DNA from: Actinomycetota bacterium
GTDB taxonomy: Bacteria; Actinomycetota; Thermoleophilia; Gaiellales; F1-60-MAGs149
Direction of reading: 5' to 3'
Length of the DNA: 64,000 bases
NCBI GenBank assembly: GCA_009885805.1
Contig: VFJZ01000006.1
Coordinates: 62,001 to 126,000 of the forward strand
How positions within the stretch are numbered: position 1 is the stretch's first letter; every line of letters starts with the position of its first letter. Below, in pieces: positions 43,139-52,097 of the stretch. A program made the position numbers and the translations under genes. The notes under the pieces are model-generated. The model was not told where the DNA came from, searched no databases, and saw only the letters and a program-made list of their open reading frames with translations.

Positions 43139-43770
43139 ACCGCTGCCGGTGCGCGTGGCACGCCCGTGCCGATCATGGAGTCGCGCGTGACGAGCGCCGC
43201 CAACTCGTCCTCACTCAGATCGTCGCTGCCAGCCGGGCGCTGTGGCAGCACCAGGTAGCGCACCTCGGCGGTCGAGTCCCAGACCCGGATCTCGGTCGCC
43301 GCGGGGAGTTCGAGGTCGAACTCGCGCAGCACGCTGCGGGGCTCGGCGACGACGCGGGCGCGATACGGCGGGCTCTTGTACCACGTCGGCGGCAGACCGA
43401 GCACCGGCCACGGATAGCAGGAGCAGAGCGTGCAGACGATGACGTTGTGCGTGTCGGGCGTGTTCTCGACGACGACCATCGTCTGGCCCTCCTCACCGCC
43501 GTAGCCGAGCTCGGCGATCGCCGCCGTGCCGTCGGCGAGCAGCCGCTCGCGGTAGGCCGGATCGCTCCAGGCACGCGCGACGACGCGCGCCCCGTTCTGC
43601 GGCCCGACGTCGTTGACGTAGTGGTCGATGACGGCGTCGATCGCGTCGCTCGCCACGATCCCCTTCTCGACCAGGAGCGCTTCGAGTGCGCGCGTGCGCA
43701 ACTCGGCCTCGCTCGCCGATCGCGGGTGGTGGTGGCCGTGCTCGTCGTGGTCGTGCTCGTGCTCGTGCAT
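43135..43770 (-). CDS. nthA: nitrile hydratase alpha subunit, cobalt type, with His-rich tail
   Basis: A 211-residue subunit. The metal-binding motif is V-C113-T-L-C116-S-C118; Thr after the first Cys marks the cobalt type (iron enzymes have Ser). [17 protein letters not shown] and [11 protein letters not shown] are conserved. The first 15 residues carry eight His (2, 4, 6, 8, 11, 13, 14, 15), an unusual tail that could bind or store cobalt. ATG 43770 overlaps the stop of the beta-1 gene by one base. The enzyme hydrates nitriles to amides; the natural substrate is unknown. Confidence 0.93.
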
Positions 43771-44411
43771 CAGACCGGCTCCAGGTAGCGTTGCCAGAGA
43801 TCGGCGTGGACGAGATGATCGCCGACATCGGCGCCCCACAGGTCGCGGGCGGCGAAGCGGACGGCGTAGACGGTCTCGGTGACGGCGTTGTCGACGTCGG
43901 GGACACCGTCGTCGCCGTGGACGATCGCGATCACCCCGGCGGCGCCGCGCAGGTAGCGCGGGCAGCGCGTGTGCCAGAACGGCCGCATGCGGCGGACGCG
44001 GACGCTGTCGCCGACGGCGAAGCGTGGCGCGACCGGGGGCCGTAGCGGCCGCCGCCGCTGCAACGCCCGCACCAGTTTGGCTGCCGCCACCGGGTCGTCG
44101 GTCCGCTGCGGCGTCTCCCCGGCCGCGAGCCGCGCCGCCATCGCGTCAACCTCGGCGTGCGTGATCGCGCCGGTCTCGACCAGCGCCAGTTCAGCCTCGA
44201 ACAGCCACTTGCCGTAGTAGGACTCCTCGAGGTAGCGCGCCGGCCCGATCCGCTCGATCGTGTGACGGAAGCCGTGCGCCGAGTAGGGGCCGGTCGCGAG
44301 CGCGAGCACGAACGCCCGCCGCTCCCAGTCGGCATGGGTCGGCTCCTCGGCGCCGGGCCAGGTAGCCGGACCGAAGCCCTGCATGCCGCCGAGATCGTGG
44401 ACGCCGTCCAT
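43770..44411 (-). CDS. nthB: nitrile hydratase beta subunit, copy 1
   Basis: A 213-residue beta subunit starting with the canonical [14 protein letters not shown]. It has the N-terminal helical half ([32 protein letters not shown]) and the C-terminal beta-barrel half ([37 protein letters not shown]), so it is not a split beta. Start and stop overlap both neighbours by a single base (TGATG). It is paralogous to the gene just upstream. Confidence 0.92.
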
Positions 44412-45073
44412 CAGGCCGCCTCGAGGTACGACTCGAACAGGTCGGCGAGGATCGTGCACCGCTCGCCGTCGTCGCCGAACACGTCGCAGCTCGCGAAGCG
44501 GACGAGGTAGACGGCCTCGATGTCGCCACCGGGCACGCGGTCGCCCGGGTGGATCCGCTCGACCCGGCCGCGACAGCCGCGCAGGTAACGGGGGAGCCGG
44601 TTGTGGCCGACGGGCCGCGCGCGGCGAACGCGGACGGCGGCGCCCGGCCCGAAGCGCGGTGCGACAGCGGCCGCGAGCGGCCTGGCGCGACGAAGTTCCG
44701 CGAGGAGGTGCGCGGCCTGCGCCGGGTCGCTGGTCGGCGTCGGTGCGTGGCCACCCGCGACGCGGTCCGCCATCGCCTTGATCTCGGCCGGGGTGACGAC
44801 GCCGTTGGCCACCACGCCGCGCTCCGTCGAGTAGACCCAGCGCTCGAAGTAGCCGACGCGCAGGTACTCCGCCGGCGCCATCTCCTCACGGTCGGCCCGG
44901 CTGGAGTTCCTGCGAAGGCGCTCCACGCCGGTGATCAGCGCGAGCGCGAACGCCCTGATCTCCCAGTCTTCGTGCCACGGCTCCTCCGCGCCCGGCCAGG
45001 TGGCGGCGCCGAAGCCCTGCATCCCACCCATGTCGTGGACGCCGTCGATGGCGGCAACGATACTCCACCGCAT
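44411..45073 (-). CDS. nthB: nitrile hydratase beta subunit, copy 2
   Basis: A second full-length beta-like subunit (220 residues from ATG 45073). From residue 9 it reads IDGVHDMGGMQGFG, then EDWEIRAFALALITG, YFERWVYSTERGVVANG, and a barrel half with RFGPGAAVRVRRARPVGHNRLPRYLRG. The family normally starts M(D/N)GVHDMGG, so the expected ATG is ATC at 45049; a TATCGT box sits exactly 7 nt before that ATC. Either an ATC start is used or the start moved upstream to 45073. First gene of the five-gene operon. Confidence 0.87.
   Translation of the reverse strand: MRWSIVAAIDGVHDMGGMQGFGAATWPGAEEPWHEDWEIRAFALALITGVERLRRNSSRADREEMAPAEYLRVGYFERWVYSTERGVVANGVVTPAEIKAMADRVAGGHAPTPTSDPAQAAHLLAELRRARPLAAAVAPRFGPGAAVRVRRARPVGHNRLPRYLRGCRGRVERIHPGDRVPGGDIEAVYLVRFASCDVFGDDGERCTILADLFESYLEAA
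45057..45064. promoter_or_regulatory. overlapping divergent promoters at the nitrile hydratase/esterase junction
   Basis: Minus TATCGT (45062-45057), 7 nt, ATC 45049. Plus GATACT (45059-45064), 7 nt, ATG 45072. The two boxes overlap. The only ATG for beta-2 (45073) shares the CATG tetranucleotide 45071-45074 with the esterase start. Confidence 0.55.
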
Positions 45074-46049
45074 GCCGCACTTCGACCTCCCGCTCGCCGA
45101 GCTTCGCACACATCGCTGCGCCGCACCCGCGCCCGACGACCTCGACGGGTACTGGGCGCGCGCGCTCGCCGAGACCCGCACGCTGGCATCCGATCCGGTG
45201 TTCGAGCCGTACGAGTCGAGTGTCTACGGCGAGCTCGCCGTGGACGACGTCACCTTCTCCGGCGGCGGCGGACACCCGATCAAGGCCTGGTTCCTGCGGC
45301 CGCGGCGCCCCACGTCCGACCGCCTCGCCTGCCGCGTCGTGTTCATCGGCTACGGCGGCGGTCGCGGGCTACCGGTGGCACACGCGCTCTACGCGGCCGC
45401 GGGCCACGCCACGCTCGTGATGGATACTCGCTCGCAGGGCGGCGAGTGGATGGTCGGTCACACGCCTGATCCCGCTCTCGGCTCGACCGGCCCGGAGCAT
45501 CCGGGCGTGATGACCCGTGGCGTGCTCGATCCGGAGACCTACTACTACCGGCGCCTCTACTGCGATGCTGTGCGGGCCGTCGAGACAGCCGCTGCGCACC
45601 CGCAGGTCGATCCGGCGCGGATTGCCGTCTCCGGCTTCTCGCAGGGCGGCGGCCTCGCGCTCGCCGCGGCCGCGCTGGCGCCCGAGCACGTGCGGCTCTG
45701 TTTCGCCGGCATGCCCTTCCTGTGCGACATCGAGCGGGCCATCACCGTCGCCGCCGAGCCGCCATACACCGAGCTGGTCCGCTACCTCGCGCTGCACGTC
45801 GATCTGGAGGAGGCCGTCCGCCGGACGCTCCGCTACATCGACGTCGCCCTGCTCGCCCCGCGCATTCGCTGTCCAACGCTCGTCTCGGTGGGGTTGATGG
45901 ACCCGATCTGCCCACCATCCTCCGTCTTCGCGGCGTACAACGCGATCGAGGGCGCGAAGGACATCGCCGTCCACGCCTTCATGGGCCACGAGGTGCCGGT
46001 GCAGCACGAGGAGCGCGAGCTCACGGAGTTCACGCTCGCCTTCTCGTAG
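45072..46049 (+). CDS. acetylxylan esterase/cephalosporin-C deacetylase (CE7) family
   Basis: A 325-residue alpha/beta hydrolase. Nucleophile elbow AVSGFSQGGGLALAAA, oxyanion-loop FIGYGGGRGLPV, Asp in VSVGLMDPICPPS and His in FMGHEVP. DTRSQGGEWMVGHTPDP is the CE7 signature (RGQ-type). It removes acetyl groups from short oligosaccharides or antibiotics; no signal peptide, so cytoplasmic as usual. ATG 45072. It is divergent from the nitrile hydratase operon. Confidence 0.9.
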   Translation: MPHFDLPLAELRTHRCAAPAPDDLDGYWARALAETRTLASDPVFEPYESSVYGELAVDDVTFSGGGGHPIKAWFLRPRRPTSDRLACRVVFIGYGGGRGLPVAHALYAAAGHATLVMDTRSQGGEWMVGHTPDPALGSTGPEHPGVMTRGVLDPETYYYRRLYCDAVRAVETAAAHPQVDPARIAVSGFSQGGGLALAAAALAPEHVRLCFAGMPFLCDIERAITVAAEPPYTELVRYLALHVDLEEAVRRTLRYIDVALLAPRIRCPTLVSVGLMDPICPPSSVFAAYNAIEGAKDIAVHAFMGHEVPVQHEERELTEFTLAFS

Positions 46050-46059
46050 AGTGAGCGAC

Positions 46060-49000
46060 ATGGCCGTTCCCTCGCGCGTCCTGCGCGTCTTCATCTCGTC
46101 CACGTTCCGGGACATGCAGGGCGAGCGCGAGGAACTCGTCAAGCGCGTCTTCCCCGGCATCCGCCGCCGCTGCGAGGAGCGCGGCGTCGTCTGGGGCGAG
46201 GTCGATCTGCGCTGGGGTGTGACCGACGAGCAGAAGGCAGAGGATGCCGTGCTGCCGATCTGCCTCGCGGAGATCGAGCGGACGCGGCCGTACTTCATCG
46301 GCATGCTCGGCGAGCGTTACGGCTGGGTGCCCGACGAGATTCCGTCCGACCTCGCCGACCGCGAGGCCTGGCTGCGCGACGACGCCGGACGCTCGGTGAC
46401 GGAGATGGAGATCCTCCACGGCGTCCTGAACGCGCCCGAGATGGCTGACCACGCCTTCTTCTACCTGCGCGCCCCGGAGTGGGTGGCGACCGTGCCCGAG
46501 GCCGAGCGCGGCACCTACGTCGAGGACACCGATGAGGGCCGTCGCCGACTGGTCGAGCTGAAGGCTCGCGTCCGCAGCTCCGCCTTCCCCGTGCGCGACT
46601 ACGCCGACCCACGCGCGATCGGCGAGCAGGTGCGCGCTGATCTCGAGGCGCTGATCGACCGGCTGTTTCCGGCCGACGCCGCGCCTGGACACCACGAGCG
46701 CGTACGGCTCGACCAGGAGACCCATGCGGCCCGCCTCGCCGGCGGCACGATCGAGCGGAGGGCCGATCTCGTCGCCGTCGACGTCGCCGCCGACGCCGAC
46801 GGCCCCGGCGTGGTCGTCTCCGGCGCGCCAGGCTGCGGCGTCTCGACACTGCTCGCCGCCTGGGCCGCGCGACGCGCTGCCGCCCGGCCGAACACCCTCG
46901 TCGTGACGCACTTTGTCGAGGCCCAGCGCGGCGAGGCATCCGAGGCGGCGATGCTCGCTGACCTCTGCCACGCCCTTGGCGATCCGGAGCCGTCCGGAGA
47001 CCTGAGGATGCGGTTCGCCCAGGTCCTCCGTGACGCCACGGCCGAGCGCCCCGTCACGCTCGTCGTCGACGGCCTGCATCTGATCGAGGCCGCGGGCGGC
47101 GGGCTCGCCTGGCTCGCCGGCGAGCAGCCGGCCACCCTCCGCGTCGTCGCCGGGACCCGCCCCGGCGCGACGCTCGCGTGGCTCGTCCAGCGCGGTCATG
47201 GGCGCGTCGACCTGCAGCTCTTCGACGCCGCCCAGCGGACGGCCGCGACCGTGGCCTTCCTCGCCGCGTACGCGAAGGCCCTCGACCGGCCGTTACTCGA
47301 CCGCATCGCAGGCGCCGAGGGGCTCGCGAGCCCGCGCCACCTGCGGACGGTCCTCGACGAGCTGCGCCAGCACGGCGACCACTTCACGCTCTCGCCGCTG
47401 CTCGACTCCCTGCTCGCGCCCGACGAGCTCGAAGGGCTCGTCGAGGTCGTGCTCGCACGCTACGAGCGCGACTACGAGCTCGACCGACCCGGCCTCGTCC
47501 GCGACGTCCTCGGCCCCGTCGCCGCGTCGCGGGCCGGGCTGACCGAGGCGGAGCTCGTCGACCTGCTCGGCGACGGCACGCGGCGAGCACTTTCCCAGCT
47601 GCAGATCGCCGCAGGTTCGCTGCTCCCGGACGTCGGCGGGCGGATCCGGCTCGGCTTCGACGAGGTTCGGGCCGTCGTCGGCCGGCGCTACCTTGCCGAC
47701 CCGAGCGCGACCCATCGGCGTGTCGCTTCGCTCTTCGCGGCGACGCCGACGAGTGCCCGTGCCCTCGAGGAGCTCCCGTGGCAGCTGCTCGCGGCCGGGG
47801 ATGCCGACGGGCTCGAGGCGCTCCTCGTCGACCCCTCGTTCATCGTCGCCGCCCACGACTTCGACGCAAGCCTGCTGCCGCGGCTGTGGGCGCGCGCCGA
47901 GGAGCGCTCGGGCCTTCGCGCCGCGACCCTCTACGCGCCGTTCGCGGCCGATCCGGTCTCGCGCGCGACGTCGATCGTCACTCCGATCGTGCAGTCGCTC
48001 GGCGGCGCAGGTGTGGCGCTCGCACTCTGGAGCGCCACCGTCGAAACGCTGCGGCAGGACGACCCGAAGGCGCAGCTCCCGGGCGCGCTCGCGAGCCTCG
48101 GCGGCGCGCAGGCGCAGGCCGGTGACCTCGCGGCGGCGGCGGCGACCCTCGACGAGCTCGAACGGCGGCTTCCGCCGGACGCGCCGCAGCTCGCCATCGC
48201 GCTGCACCAGAACCGCGGCATCGTCCGCCGCCATCTCGGTCAGCGTGACGAGGCGCTCGTCGACCTTGCGCGTGCCGAGGAGATCGCCCGAACCACCGGA
48301 GCGTTCGGCGACCTCCAGGCCGCCGCCGGCGAGCGGGCCGGCGTGCTCGTGGAGCTCGGTCGCCTGCAGGACGCGCTCGCCGCCAGCGAGATCCAGGTCG
48401 AAGCGGCGAACCGCAGCGGCAACCCGGGCGCCCGCATGCGCGCCCTCGTCACGCGCGCCACGCTGCTTCACCAGAGCGGCGACATCGCCGGCGCCGCCCG
48501 CGCGACGGGTGAGGGCGAGCACCTCGCCCGTGACCTCGGCGACCTCGAGTGGCTGGCGACGGCGCTCACCGTCCACGTCCAACTGCGTCAGTGGGAGAAC
48601 CGGCTCGACCTCGCGCGCGAGCAGATCACCGAGCTCGCGGACGTCCGCGATCGCCTCGGCCAGGCGGACGTCGCGGCGCAGGTGCGGGCGATGCTGCAGG
48701 CCGTGCCGGCGGGGCGCGGCGATGAGGACCTCGCCCGGCTGCGCGACCTGGAGCAGCGGTCGCTGCAGCAGCAGGGCCGCGGCGACTACCAGGCCTGCAT
48801 CGAGACCTGCCAGGAGATGGCGCAGATCGCGCGCAGGAGCGGCAACGACCGCGGGCTCGCGAGCGCGCTCGGGAACGAGGCGGTGGCCCTGCACTACCTC
48901 GGGCGAATGGACGACGCGCTGCCGCTGTTTCAGGAGCAGATCGGACTGCAACGGAAGATCGGCGACCCGGTCGCGCTGGCGACGGCGCTGGCGAACACCG

Positions 49001-49140
49001 GGGAGTTGCTCGGCCGTCTCGGACGCAGCGACGAGGCGCTGGCGATGATCGGCGAGGCCGAGACGCTGGCGCGTGGCGCCGGTCAGGCGGAGTTCGCGGG
49101 CCAGATCGCGCAACTGGCCGAGCAGATCCGGCGCCGGTAG
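46060..49140 (+). CDS. DUF4062-STAND NTPase-TPR protein with degenerate P-loop
   Basis: A 1,026-residue protein (ATG 46060; GTG 46051 would add three residues). Residues ~5 to 95 are a DUF4062 domain: LRVFISSTFRDMQGEREEL, WGEVDLRWGVTDEQ, RPYFIGMLGERYGWVP. A STAND/NACHT-like module follows: the P-loop reads GAPGCGVST near residue 261, with Val where the Walker A Lys should be; Walker B is VTLVVDGLHLI. Residues ~680 to 1,020 form TPR-like helical repeats (QRDEALVDLARAEEIA, GRMDDALPLFQEQIGLQ, GRSDEALAMIGEAETLA). The N-DUF4062, NTPase, TPR order is that of NPHP3-like and anti-phage STAND sensors. It starts 10 bp after the esterase. Confidence 0.88.
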   Translation: MAVPSRVLRVFISSTFRDMQGEREELVKRVFPGIRRRCEERGVVWGEVDLRWGVTDEQKAEDAVLPICLAEIERTRPYFIGMLGERYGWVPDEIPSDLADREAWLRDDAGRSVTEMEILHGVLNAPEMADHAFFYLRAPEWVATVPEAERGTYVEDTDEGRRRLVELKARVRSSAFPVRDYADPRAIGEQVRADLEALIDRLFPADAAPGHHERVRLDQETHAARLAGGTIERRADLVAVDVAADADGPGVVVSGAPGCGVSTLLAAWAARRAAARPNTLVVTHFVEAQRGEASEAAMLADLCHALGDPEPSGDLRMRFAQVLRDATAERPVTLVVDGLHLIEAAGGGLAWLAGEQPATLRVVAGTRPGATLAWLVQRGHGRVDLQLFDAAQRTAATVAFLAAYAKALDRPLLDRIAGAEGLASPRHLRTVLDELRQHGDHFTLSPLLDSLLAPDELEGLVEVVLARYERDYELDRPGLVRDVLGPVAASRAGLTEAELVDLLGDGTRRALSQLQIAAGSLLPDVGGRIRLGFDEVRAVVGRRYLADPSATHRRVASLFAATPTSARALEELPWQLLAAGDADGLEALLVDPSFIVAAHDFDASLLPRLWARAEERSGLRAATLYAPFAADPVSRATSIVTPIVQSLGGAGVALALWSATVETLRQDDPKAQLPGALASLGGAQAQAGDLAAAAATLDELERRLPPDAPQLAIALHQNRGIVRRHLGQRDEALVDLARAEEIARTTGAFGDLQAAAGERAGVLVELGRLQDALAASEIQVEAANRSGNPGARMRALVTRATLLHQSGDIAGAARATGEGEHLARDLGDLEWLATALTVHVQLRQWENRLDLAREQITELADVRDRLGQADVAAQVRAMLQAVPAGRGDEDLARLRDLEQRSLQQQGRGDYQACIETCQEMAQIARRSGNDRGLASALGNEAVALHYLGRMDDALPLFQEQIGLQRKIGDPVALATALANTGELLGRLGRSDEALAMIGEAETLARGAGQAEFAGQIAQLAEQIRRR

Positions 49141-49169
49141 ATTCGGAACATCCGACCGCGGAGGCAGCA

Positions 49170-49934
49170 ATGGCCGAGCGATCGACCGGGACCCCGTGCT
49201 GGGTCGACATCGCGACGAGTGACATCCCCGGAGCGATCGCCTTCTACGGCGGCCTGTTCGGCTGGGACTGCCAGCAGGGGCCGCCCGAGGTCGGTGGCTA
49301 CACGATGTGCCTCGTGGACGGCAAGCCGGCCGCTGCTATCTCACCGGTCATGGGTGACGCGCCGGCAACGGCGCCGTACTGGACGACGTACCTCGCGTCG
49401 GACGACGCCGACGCGACGGTGGCCGCCGCCAGGGCGAACGGGGCGACGGTGACGGTGGAGCCGTTCGATGTGATGTCGTTCGGGCGGATGGCGATGATCT
49501 CCGATCCCGCCGGCGTGACGACCGGTATCTGGGAGAAGCGCGACCACCGCGGGTTCCTGACGGACTTCACCGCCGGCGCCGTCTGCTGGCACGAGCACAT
49601 CTCCCGCGACGACGCCGCGGGCGCCGCCTTCCTCGGTGCCGTCTTCGGCCTGGAGGGCGAGGCGTGGGCCGGGATGCCCGGCTACCGGGTGATGAAAAAG
49701 GATGGCGTCCCCGCCTGCGGCCTGATGCAGATGCGCGGGGGCTTTCCGGAGGACATGGGCCCGCAGTGGATGGCCTACGTCCAGGTCGATGACGTGGACG
49801 CCGCCTGCGAGAAGGTCGTCGCCCTGGGCGGGTCGGTCCCGCACGAGGCCTTCGACGTCGGGGGCGTCGGCCGGATCGCGATGATCACCGACACGCAGGG
49901 CGGACACGTCGGGATCGTCCAGCCGGTCCGGTGA
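49170..49934 (+). CDS. VOC (glyoxalase/bleomycin resistance) double-domain protein
   Basis: A 254-residue protein with Shine-Dalgarno GGAGG at 49160-49164. Two vicinal-oxygen-chelate domains: PCWVDIATSDIPGAIAFYGGLFGWD...DPAGVTTGIWE and VCWHEHISRDDAAGAAFLGAVFGLE...DTQGGHVGIVQ. Members bind metals and small ligands; function unassigned. Its TGA stop (49932-49934) lies inside a palindromic repeat. It sits between the STAND gene and the RyR operon but its family is too general to tie it to them. Confidence 0.87.
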   Translation: MAERSTGTPCWVDIATSDIPGAIAFYGGLFGWDCQQGPPEVGGYTMCLVDGKPAAAISPVMGDAPATAPYWTTYLASDDADATVAAARANGATVTVEPFDVMSFGRMAMISDPAGVTTGIWEKRDHRGFLTDFTAGAVCWHEHISRDDAAGAAFLGAVFGLEGEAWAGMPGYRVMKKDGVPACGLMQMRGGFPEDMGPQWMAYVQVDDVDAACEKVVALGGSVPHEAFDVGGVGRIAMITDTQGGHVGIVQPVR

Positions 49935-49963
49935 AAGAAAGGGATCAGATCCCGATCTTTCAC
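49931..49963. repeat. palindrome copy 2, supplying stop codons of two convergent genes
   Basis: GTGAAAGAAAGGGATC (49931-49946), central A, then GATCCCGATCTTTCAC (49948-49963); two mismatches from perfect symmetry. The left half is identical to the copy at 41514-41529. TGA at 49932-49934 ends the VOC gene and the mirror TGA at 49962-49960 ends the RyR gene. Confidence 0.85.
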
Positions 49964-51615
49964 AGGCGTAGCACCTCGAGACCGGCCCGCGCGAGCACCG
50001 TCGGGATGCGGCGCGCCGCCTCGCGGCCGTCGGCCTTCGCTTCATCCGGCAGGGCGGTCCACTCGACCAGCACCGGGTTGATCTTCCGGTCGGCGTCGCG
50101 AGCCTGGCCGTGGCGCCAGCCGGCCGCCGTGCGTTCGGCGCGCCAACGCTCATGCTCGCCGGAGGCGAGCGTCTCGACCTCGCCCGCCGTCAGCGTGACG
50201 TGCGGCGCGCCCCAGCCGCCGAGCGGTACGAGGTCGCAGCCGATCGCGGTCAGCCCCTCCGCGAGCGCGTCGGCCTGGTGCCGGTTCGACTCCTGCACCT
50301 CGGCCGGCAGCTCGTCCCAGGGAATGTCGTACGGCGTGTCGACGGCGCGATCCGTGTAGTCGGCGTGGATCGCCCGCGCCACCTGCTCGTGCGCGCCGCC
50401 CTCGACGATCTCCACCGTGCAGGCGCGCTGCAGAAGCGGGAACGGGATGACGCCCGCTGCGCTCGCGCCCTCGCCGAGCAGGAGTGCGAGCCCACCGACG
50501 CCGACGGTGCGCGCGATTACCGCGGCCGTCTGGTTCGGCAGTAGTCGCCGGATGAGCAGGGCCGTCGTGACGGCGCGGGCGTCGTCGTCGAAGCAGACGA
50601 CGACCGCCGTGACGGCGCTCTCCAGGGCGCCCCGCAGGCGTTCGGCCTCATCGCGGCCGGGCCGTTCGAGGTCGATGTCGACGGCGTCGAGTTTCGCGCG
50701 CTCCGCGAGGGCCGGCTGGGCGAGGAGCAGCGCGTTCAGCCGGGCAGTGGCGTCGCGGTCGATCACCGTGATGCGCGCGTTGGGGTCGCTCGACTCCCGC
50801 GCCGCCGCCTCGAGCAGGCACCGTCCCAGTTGGCCGAGGCCGACGATCACGAGATGCGGGCCGGGCGGGTGGCGTTCGAGGAGGAGCCGGGCGCCGGCCG
50901 AGTAGACGTCGAAGAAGTCGAAGCGGACGCCTGCGCCCGCAGTCCGTAGCGACTGGTGCCGCATCAGGGCGCACAGCCCGGCGTCACTCAGGTGGACCGA
51001 CGCGCGCAACGGCCCGGCGCCGGGTGCGCGCGGGAGGGCGCCGATCGCCGCGACGACCTCCGCGTTCGTCGCATCGGTGCCGCAGACGACCACGACCTGC
51101 GCCGCCGCGCCGAGACCCGCGCGCTCGAGCGTGCGCGCCTCGCGGGCGTCACCCTCGATCACCGCCGACTCGCCGCGGCGCAGCGTGCGTACGCCCGGCG
51201 TGGCTGCTTCGTGCTCGACGCCCACCACCGTGCGCCCGGCGTCGCGGAGTGCGTCCGCGATGCGGGTGCCGCGATCGCCGAGACCGAGGACGACGACGTG
51301 CCCGCGCCGTCGTCGCGCCCGGAACGCGTCGGTGCGTCGCCGGGAGACGGCCGCGATACCTTCGAGCAGCGACGCGGCCGCGATCACCGGCCCCAGCCAG
51401 CGCGCGACCTGCAGCTGCCAGTTCGCGTTGGCGAGCTCGAGATCGAAGCCGAGGCCGAACAGGTCGGAGAGCTGGTAGACGTCGTCGACGAAGGTCCTCC
51501 CTTCCGGGGCCAGCCGCATCCCCCACAGCCCGAGCGCGGCCGTCGCGATCCAGCCGAGGAGGAGCACCTTCCAGCGACCCTTGCCCTTCGTCAGCGCGAT
51601 GAACAGCGAGATCAC
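49960..51615 (-). CDS. two-TM protein with two TrkA-N (RCK) domains and a C-terminal RyR domain
   Basis: A 551-residue protein from GTG 51615. Two N-terminal membrane helices (VLLLGWIATAALGLWGM and VARWLGPVIAAASLLEGIAAV) flank a loop without any TxGYG selectivity filter, so it is channel-like in layout but probably not a K+ channel. Two Rossmann TrkA-N domains follow (HVVVLGLGDRGTRIADAL; HLVIVGLGQLGRCLLEAA). The last ~90 residues (IHADYTDRAVDTPYDIPWDEL, ALAEGLTAIGCDLVPLGGW, RRIPTVLARAGLEVL) match RyR repeats. It overlaps the SLOG-like gene by 4 bp. TrkA-RyR plus SLOG is a combination reported in nucleotide-sensing conflict systems. Confidence 0.82.
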   Translation of the reverse strand: MISLFIALTKGKGRWKVLLLGWIATAALGLWGMRLAPEGRTFVDDVYQLSDLFGLGFDLELANANWQLQVARWLGPVIAAASLLEGIAAVSRRRTDAFRARRRRGHVVVLGLGDRGTRIADALRDAGRTVVGVEHEAATPGVRTLRRGESAVIEGDAREARTLERAGLGAAAQVVVVCGTDATNAEVVAAIGALPRAPGAGPLRASVHLSDAGLCALMRHQSLRTAGAGVRFDFFDVYSAGARLLLERHPPGPHLVIVGLGQLGRCLLEAAARESSDPNARITVIDRDATARLNALLLAQPALAERAKLDAVDIDLERPGRDEAERLRGALESAVTAVVVCFDDDARAVTTALLIRRLLPNQTAAVIARTVGVGGLALLLGEGASAAGVIPFPLLQRACTVEIVEGGAHEQVARAIHADYTDRAVDTPYDIPWDELPAEVQESNRHQADALAEGLTAIGCDLVPLGGWGAPHVTLTAGEVETLASGEHERWRAERTAAGWRHGQARDADRKINPVLVEWTALPDEAKADGREAARRIPTVLARAGLEVLRL

Positions 51616-52097
51616 GCGACGTCCCGACGATCTGCCGCCGCGATGTGGACGACCTCGACGGTGGCCGCTCGCGCGGCCGCGACGACCTCGGCGGTGCCAC
51701 CCGGGCCGCGCGCCGGCTCTCCGTTCCACAGTGCAATCAGGACGTCGCAGGTAGCGACCAGCGCGAGGCCCTGGGCCCGGTAGCAGTCGGGCCGCGGCCG
51801 CGGCGGGTCGATCGACCGGACCCGCGCCGCGCGCGCCAGCAGTCGCTCGCAGTCGTCCGGCCGTTCGAGGTCGTCGCGGAAGTCGGATAGCGGCAGCGGC
51901 AGCAAGGCCTCCAGTTCCCAGCCACGCACGAGGGCGACGTGCGCGACGAACTCGTCCGCACCCTCGGCCATGCCGGAGACGAGGACGTACGGAGCGGCGT
52001 GGTGGGTCTCGATGCCGACGAGGGCGGCGGCGACCGTCGCCTCCAGACCGGCCTGCGCCGCGAGTAGCCGGTGACCCGTGACGCCGATCCTCGTCAT
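51612..52097 (-). CDS. SLOG-like (LOG/DprA-type Rossmann) nucleotide-sensor protein
   Basis: A 161-residue protein from ATG 52097. TRIGVTGHRLL at the N-terminus, VLVSGMAEGADEFVAHVAL, then LALVATCDVLIALWNGEPA and the phosphate-binding GPGGTAEVVAAAR correspond to the SLOG superfamily fold (GGxGT-type loop). DFRDDLERPDDCERLLARA is a conserved insert I have seen in proteins of this type. SLOG domains bind or process nucleotides and ligand-like messengers. It is first in an operon with the TrkA-RyR protein, and a TAGGGT box 8 nt upstream suggests a leaderless transcript. Confidence 0.78.
   Translation of the reverse strand: MTRIGVTGHRLLAAQAGLEATVAAALVGIETHHAAPYVLVSGMAEGADEFVAHVALVRGWELEALLPLPLSDFRDDLERPDDCERLLARAARVRSIDPPRPRPDCYRAQGLALVATCDVLIALWNGEPARGPGGTAEVVAAARAATVEVVHIAAADRRDVA

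Follow-up and report, generated by a model that had tools for sequence, protein, structure and literature searches.

Within positions 46,060 to 52,097 of a 64,000-nucleotide stretch of contig VFJZ01000006.1 from an Actinomycetota bacterium of the class Thermoleophilia (the whole stretch is called the window in the following), genes for a DUF4062-STAND-TPR protein, a membrane protein with TrkA_N and RyR domains and a SLOG-fold protein were found. We consider it moderately likely that they represent a Thoeris-like immune module, in which a DUF4062-NACHT NADase would produce an ADP-ribose (ADPR)-type signal gating the RyR-bearing membrane effector, with the SLOG protein alongside. In the proposed sequence of events, the DUF4062-NACHT-TPR protein would detect an infection cue, probably via its TPR repeats, and then oligomerise, whereby its TIR-like DUF4062 domain would be switched on and cut nicotinamide adenine dinucleotide (NAD+) to ADPR or a cyclic or modified ADPR. 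This product would be bound by the tandem RyR unit of the membrane protein and possibly also by the SLOG protein, whose role may be to sharpen the response or to buffer it. Opening or oligomerisation of the membrane protein would finally upset membrane or ion balance and stop the infected cell. Domains, folds, conserved catalytic and ligand residues and the conserved gene linkage were observed directly, whereas NADase activity, messenger, channel opening and phage defence are proposed. A preceding sequence-only reading of this DNA had proposed a nucleotide-centred conflict system, which the genes fit, and all gene positions and strands given there were recovered.

The 1,026-residue protein, previously described as DUF4062-NTPase-TPR, indeed matches the Pfam families DUF4062 (6.4e-13; 49.1 bits versus a cut-off of 24.7), AAA_22 (2.4e-6) and TPR_12 (3e-13), with DUF4062 at residues 9-118, the NTPase at about 240-500 and the TPR repeats at about 700-1020. 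Its DUF4062 region matches the TIR crystal structure of human TEP1 (11gz, E=1.1e-30, phmmer), and residues E117, R17 and R86 align with the catalytic glutamate E1008 and the active-site arginines R908 and R976 of TEP1, respectively; the BB-loop arginine R954 is not kept (TEP1 numbering anchored on three arginines given in PMC13174449). The DUF4062 domains of KpSwz and human TEP1 have been reported to be TIR-like NADases hydrolysing NAD+, and KpSwz provides phage defence via abortive infection (2026 preprint, PMC13174449). Because DUF4062 is an experimentally established TIR-like NADase family, the window protein is probably sensor and enzyme at once. Of its earlier assignment as sensor or scaffold, the sensor part can probably be kept, whereas an exclusive role of this kind is no longer supported, DUF4062 being the likeliest signal maker. 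Searching the protein against its order gave TPR matches only and no orthologue, and the closest relative found is a DUF4062-NACHT-TPR protein (L158) with 37% identity over about 630 residues. Elsewhere, DUF4062 occurs together with a guanylate cyclase domain, NB-ARC and TPR repeats in a single protein (L244:2358-5366, genome G033), so that one STAND protein would carry a TIR-like NADase as well as a nucleotide cyclase.

The membrane protein had been described as a two-transmembrane (TM) double TrkA-N protein ending in a RyR domain, in line with the Pfam matches (TrkA_N 1.8e-17; RyR, PF02026, 1.7e-11 at 44.7 bits versus a cut-off of 27.4) and an AlphaFold model based on 45 sequences (predicted local distance difference test score, pLDDT, 90.6; predicted template modelling score, pTM, 0.86). 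In the model, TM helices 14-34 and 66-102 flank a short helix 42-53 and are followed by a pair of Rossmann (RCK) domains and, at the C-terminus, a helical unit, which corresponds to the TM1-pore helix-TM2-RCK order of 2-TM RCK channels. The best Foldseek matches are GsuK (E=6.6e-10) and the TrkA gating ring, while the C-terminal unit matches Repeat12 of human RyR3 with bound ADP or AMP-PCP. This unit is a Repeat12-like tandem, as a degenerate first repeat at about 410-445, with the conserved residues H417, Y420, W433, N444 and R445, precedes the second one recognised by Pfam and has to be added to the earlier description. Phage PF02026 proteins bind or cut 2'/3'cADPR (cADPR, cyclic ADPR) via H75, W78, H100 and D117 (2026 preprint, PMC13232231). 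Matched by spacing, not by alignment, these residues of the phage protein RyDEP correspond to H488, W491, N513 and G530. Across the 45 members, the His and Trp columns are nearly invariant, and both residues are kept in the window protein; the third column is mostly His and the fourth Asp or Asn (Asn in 21/45). Judged from this residue pattern, binding is favoured over hydrolysis. Since phage RyR domains have been shown to bind 2'/3'cADPR (PMC13232231), the RyR domain is likely a receptor and the whole protein an effector combined with a signal receptor, which agrees with the response to a nucleotide signal assigned to it in the sequence-only reading.

Alternatively, the RyR domain, and SLOG with it, might serve as an off-switch that degrades or sequesters leaked ADPR-type signal and guards against accidental activation, comparable to phage RyDEP. 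Hydrolysis or sequestration of cADPR by phage RyR proteins (PMC13232231) and a NUDIX gene accompanying a Bacteroidales TrkA-RyR locus (L128) would be compatible with such a function. However, the inferred catalytic Asp is replaced by Gly in the window protein and by Asn in the 21 relatives mentioned, and the attachment of the RyR domain to a 2-TM gating-ring protein points to an output function more than to signal clearance, making this off-switch quite improbable.

For the third protein, sequence comparison gave only a hint below the cut-off (YAcAr, E=0.013). Its AlphaFold model (pLDDT 90), in contrast, has the SLOG Rossmann-like fold, and Foldseek finds YpsA (1.2e-8), DprA, ShosA, the SLOG domain of BcThsA with 3'cADPR and TRPM5, so that the SLOG-like nature proposed previously is supported by the fold. 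The protein is likely a second nucleotide binder or accessory protein. Of the two activities considered before, making or sensing the signal, synthesis is the less likely one, and binding is preferred. A SLOG domain of the same type is fused behind RyR in three further loci (L003-L005).

Scanning GTDB genomes with a TrkA-RyR profile, derived from a closer subset of these proteins (the full set had no conserved stretch), resulted in 60 loci. In eight Micromonospora loci (L149, L151, L161, L162, L166-L169), genes for DUF4062-NACHT-HEAT, TrkA-RyR and SLOG proteins share one strand in this order, either overlapping or separated by no more than about 150 bp, and TrkA-RyR-SLOG occurs in 26 Micromonospora loci. 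In L158, the DUF4062-NACHT-TPR relative of the window protein lies two genes upstream of TrkA-RyR, separated by a short gene (L158:4726-5235) whose small DnaJ-domain product has a hydrophobic segment at its C-terminus. Within the class of the window organism, genome G520 (L239) carries a WD40 gene, DUF4062-NACHT, SLOG and TrkA-RyR successively on one strand, the last two showing 39% identity to the window SLOG protein and 35% over 544 residues to the window TrkA-RyR protein, respectively. In three related low-GC genomes (L111, L114, L115), DUF4062-NACHT-WD40 genes with Pfam TEP1-propeller matches precede, by about 100 bp, a RyR gene whose product has a different N-terminus. Moreover, a canonical TIR gene (Pfam TIR_2) adjoins TrkA-RyR in L106, L118, L122, L128, L137, L138 (archaea) and L140-L142, the hosts including Bacteroidales, Methanomicrobiales, Mycolicibacter, Nocardia and others. 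The previous assumption that the STAND and SLOG/RyR genes belong together is therefore substantiated by one-strand runs in unrelated actinomycetes, and the lack of co-occurrence named as evidence to the contrary is not what is observed.

These associations were also quantified. Among 299 genomes of the class, RyR is present in 14, DUF4062 in 28 and both in 6 (1.3 expected), with three RyR/DUF4062 cases within about 10 kb versus 0.011 expected (own genome excluded), and among 397 genomes of the phylum the corresponding values are 22, 40 and 7, three of the linked cases in this sample being close relatives that should count as one event. TIR or DUF4062 is found near roughly half of about 27 non-Micromonospora TrkA-RyR loci, while none of 20 ordinary TrkA/RCK control loci has TIR, DUF4062 or SLOG. 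As many TrkA-RyR loci are on short contigs, missing neighbours are weak evidence. For the complete module, a chance neighbourhood is rejected on the grounds of the linkage statistics and the control loci. A housekeeping function, in which TrkA/RyR would be a common regulator of K+ transport and the STAND protein one of metabolism, is disfavoured by the patchy distribution. It would be suggested by the TrkA_N domains and by the plain metabolic neighbours in the window (nitrile hydratase, CoA-binding, MetY-like), but RyR is sparse in the class, ordinary TrkA loci do not share the TIR/DUF4062 association, and in the nearest usable relative from the same family (G015) nitrile hydratase, CoA-binding, MetY-like and GntR genes are present in matching order, whereas the complete esterase-STAND-VOC-TrkA/RyR-SLOG block is absent. 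Hence, we regard a housekeeping role as extremely unlikely. The patchy presence of the block fits a defence module.

Beside these recurrent arrangements, some TrkA-RyR neighbourhoods have a composition of their own. In the Bacteroidales locus L128 (747-7376), RelA/SpoT-TPR-RyR, NUDIX, TrkA-RyR and TIR form a one-strand four-gene run, suggesting an alarmone or ADPR-type signal network. In genome G422 (L121:8403-10919), RelA/SpoT, TPR, a TRPM-type SLOG (LSDAT_prok) and RyR are found in one protein encoded divergently from TrkA-RyR. RyR is fused to a protein-kinase-like domain in L110, L112 and L113, with TIR genes near L110 and L112, and in Micromonospora phaseoli (L148:12360-14963) a single frame encoding caspase (Peptidase_C14) and alpha-amylase domains adjoins a TrkA-RyR/SLOG pair. 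A plasmid search revealed two distant DUF4062 matches only and no TrkA-RyR. RyR-like proteins, mostly annotated as hypothetical, are also encoded in 162 records of phages, among which phages of Salmonella, Pseudomonas and Arthrobacter are numerous; these proteins are candidates for signal sponges.

In the window itself, the SLOG stop codon TGA lies within a GTGA whose GTG starts the TrkA/RyR gene, in agreement with the overlapping opposite-strand pair noted before. Third-position guanine-cytosine (GC) content, obtained from codon-position GC, is 0.88-0.93 across the STAND, VOC, TrkA/RyR and SLOG frames, so that all four can be taken as real genes. At the terminator-like hairpin, two overlapping sites were seen versus 0.6 expected in shuffles. 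The VOC gene is an ordinary glyoxalase-family gene that is not seen in the related and partner loci examined; it is probably a bystander, as suspected previously.

Features of the locus, with positions referring to the window
Feature	Position	Strand	Remark
DUF4062-STAND/NACHT-type NTPase-TPR protein (P0001)	46060..49140	+	1,026 aa from ATG 46060
Two-domain VOC/glyoxalase-family gene, probable bystander	49170..49934	+	between the two halves of the locus
Terminator-like hairpin with T-rich tail	49943..49957	-	just past the TrkA/RyR stop; end of the SLOG-TrkA/RyR operon
Membrane protein with 2 TM helices, pore-like helix, two TrkA_N (RCK) domains and tandem RyR (P0002)	49960..51615	-	551 aa from GTG 51615
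SLOG-fold protein (P0003)	51612..52097	-	161 codons (51615-52097), then stop

Several observations weigh against the signalling module outlined above, concerning the enzyme product, the receptor and the state of the window copy. In known systems, linear ADPR is a depletion product and not a known signal. The DUF4062 domains of KpSwz and TEP1 release ADPR and nicotinamide, and TEP1 yields only linear ADPR, with no other ADPR derivative found (PMC13174449). This would suit a messenger-free depletion of NAD+, in which the DUF4062-NACHT protein would kill by hydrolysing NAD+, as Swarozyc does, and the TrkA-RyR/SLOG pair would read NAD+, ADPR or nucleotide imbalance only as second, parallel or amplifying effector. 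Binding of NAD/ADP by the RCK domains of GsuK and the existence of TrkA-RyR/SLOG loci with no DUF4062 or TIR neighbour detected point in the same direction. Depletion alone, however, does not require a dedicated receptor, yet RyR proteins of varying make-up (TrkA, a second N-terminal type, AAA) repeatedly adjoin TIR or DUF4062 genes, which would be expected for signal-receptor pairing. We consider this explanation fairly unlikely. On the receptor side, N513 and G530 are substitutions at two of the spacing-inferred ligand positions, and no TVGYGD-like K+ filter motif is found between the TM helices of the aligned members listed.

Regarding the window copy, the non-canonical P-loop pointed out in the sequence-only reading is real, GAPGCGVST at residue 255 being devoid of the Lys of the GxxGxGK[ST] motif in aligned relatives, and this change seems specific to the window copy among the aligned sequences. 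The Walker B Asp (D337) is present. Due to the lost Lys, ATP handling may be impaired, and although the architecture is STAND-like, it is doubtful whether this copy binds ATP in the canonical way. In addition, the STAND gene lies 10 bp behind an acetyl-xylan-esterase-like gene and is on the strand opposite SLOG-TrkA/RyR with VOC in between, hence the locus is not a single operon, and none of the genes adjoining it was recognised as a known defence gene. Strand split, intervening VOC gene and P-loop change suggest a rearranged and possibly drifting copy. The same features, together with the separate occurrence of the two families in some genomes, would also be explained if only SLOG-TrkA/RyR were a real module and the STAND gene acted alone, as chance neighbour or decaying remnant. 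Against such a coincidence stand the genome-wide linkage, which exceeds chance by far when the own genome is excluded, the same combination in one-strand runs of other lineages, and the intact STAND frame with codon bias kept, leaving it an unlikely explanation.

Thoeris systems consist of a TIR enzyme and a signal-gated effector and comprise types I, II and IV (PMC12847820). The module proposed here resembles them in encoding a TIR-type NADase together with a nucleotide-binding effector, in having a SLOG domain and, as type II, a membrane effector, and in several TrkA-RyR loci canonical TIR stands in for DUF4062. It differs by placing the enzyme as DUF4062 on a NACHT-TPR protein, by using RyR as receptor instead of SIR2-SLOG, macro or caspase, by the 2-TM double-RCK effector and by SLOG being a separate protein. 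The window proteins gave no PADLOC Thoeris match, and neither PADLOC nor NCBIfam has a model covering TrkA-RyR or this SLOG type. With Swarozyc/KpSwz and TEP1 (PMC13174449), the DUF4062 fold and the conserved catalytic Glu are shared, with TEP1 also the DUF4062-NACHT arrangement; KpSwz, in contrast, consists of one protein that has a portal-binding domain but lacks NACHT, while the window has NACHT, TPR and the TrkA-RyR and SLOG partners. RyDEP, a phage anti-Thoeris protein (PMC13232231), shares the PF02026 domain and the His-x-x-Trp ligand residues, but in the window the domain is encoded by the host as part of a gating-ring membrane protein, and the inferred catalytic Asp is missing. In GsuK, of which structures containing NAD and ADP exist, the TM helices and two RCK/TrkA_N domains follow each other as in the window protein, but GsuK is a K+ channel, whereas the window protein has a C-terminal tandem RyR and no recognisable K+ selectivity filter. 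Conflict systems with SLOG, TrkA and RyR, i.e., the same domain vocabulary, were reportedly predicted by Burroughs and colleagues in 2015 by comparative genomics. The main text of the DUF4062 preprint (PMC13174449) makes no mention of RyR, TrkA-RyR or SLOG partners and the RyR preprint (PMC13232231) none of TrkA or DUF4062. The DUF4062-NACHT/RyR pairing was not found in the literature searched, which did not include Burroughs et al. (2015) or Yirmiya (2025), and TIR-RyR pairs may already have been described.

A more far-reaching interpretation, which we put forward only tentatively and regard as doubtful, is a pathway from a TEP1/NPHP3-type DUF4062-NACHT enzyme via an ADPR-derived messenger to a RyR Repeat12-gated ion channel. 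Such a pathway would be the counterpart in prokaryotes, and possibly the origin, of vault TEP1 as well as of cADPR-to-RyR signalling in animals. If true, one host system would unite DUF4062 as NADase and RyR as cADPR binder, functions reported only in May 2026, and each family would gain a natural partner. The long-standing question of RyR Repeat12 as cADPR-type receptor would become testable in bacteria, the fate of the product of TEP1-like NACHT proteins would be hinted at, and an ion-channel-type effector would be added to TIR signalling.

Outside the locus, two tandem nitrile hydratase beta-like genes are present at positions 43770-45181 (minus strand) of the window, the first of which overlaps the alpha-chain gene.

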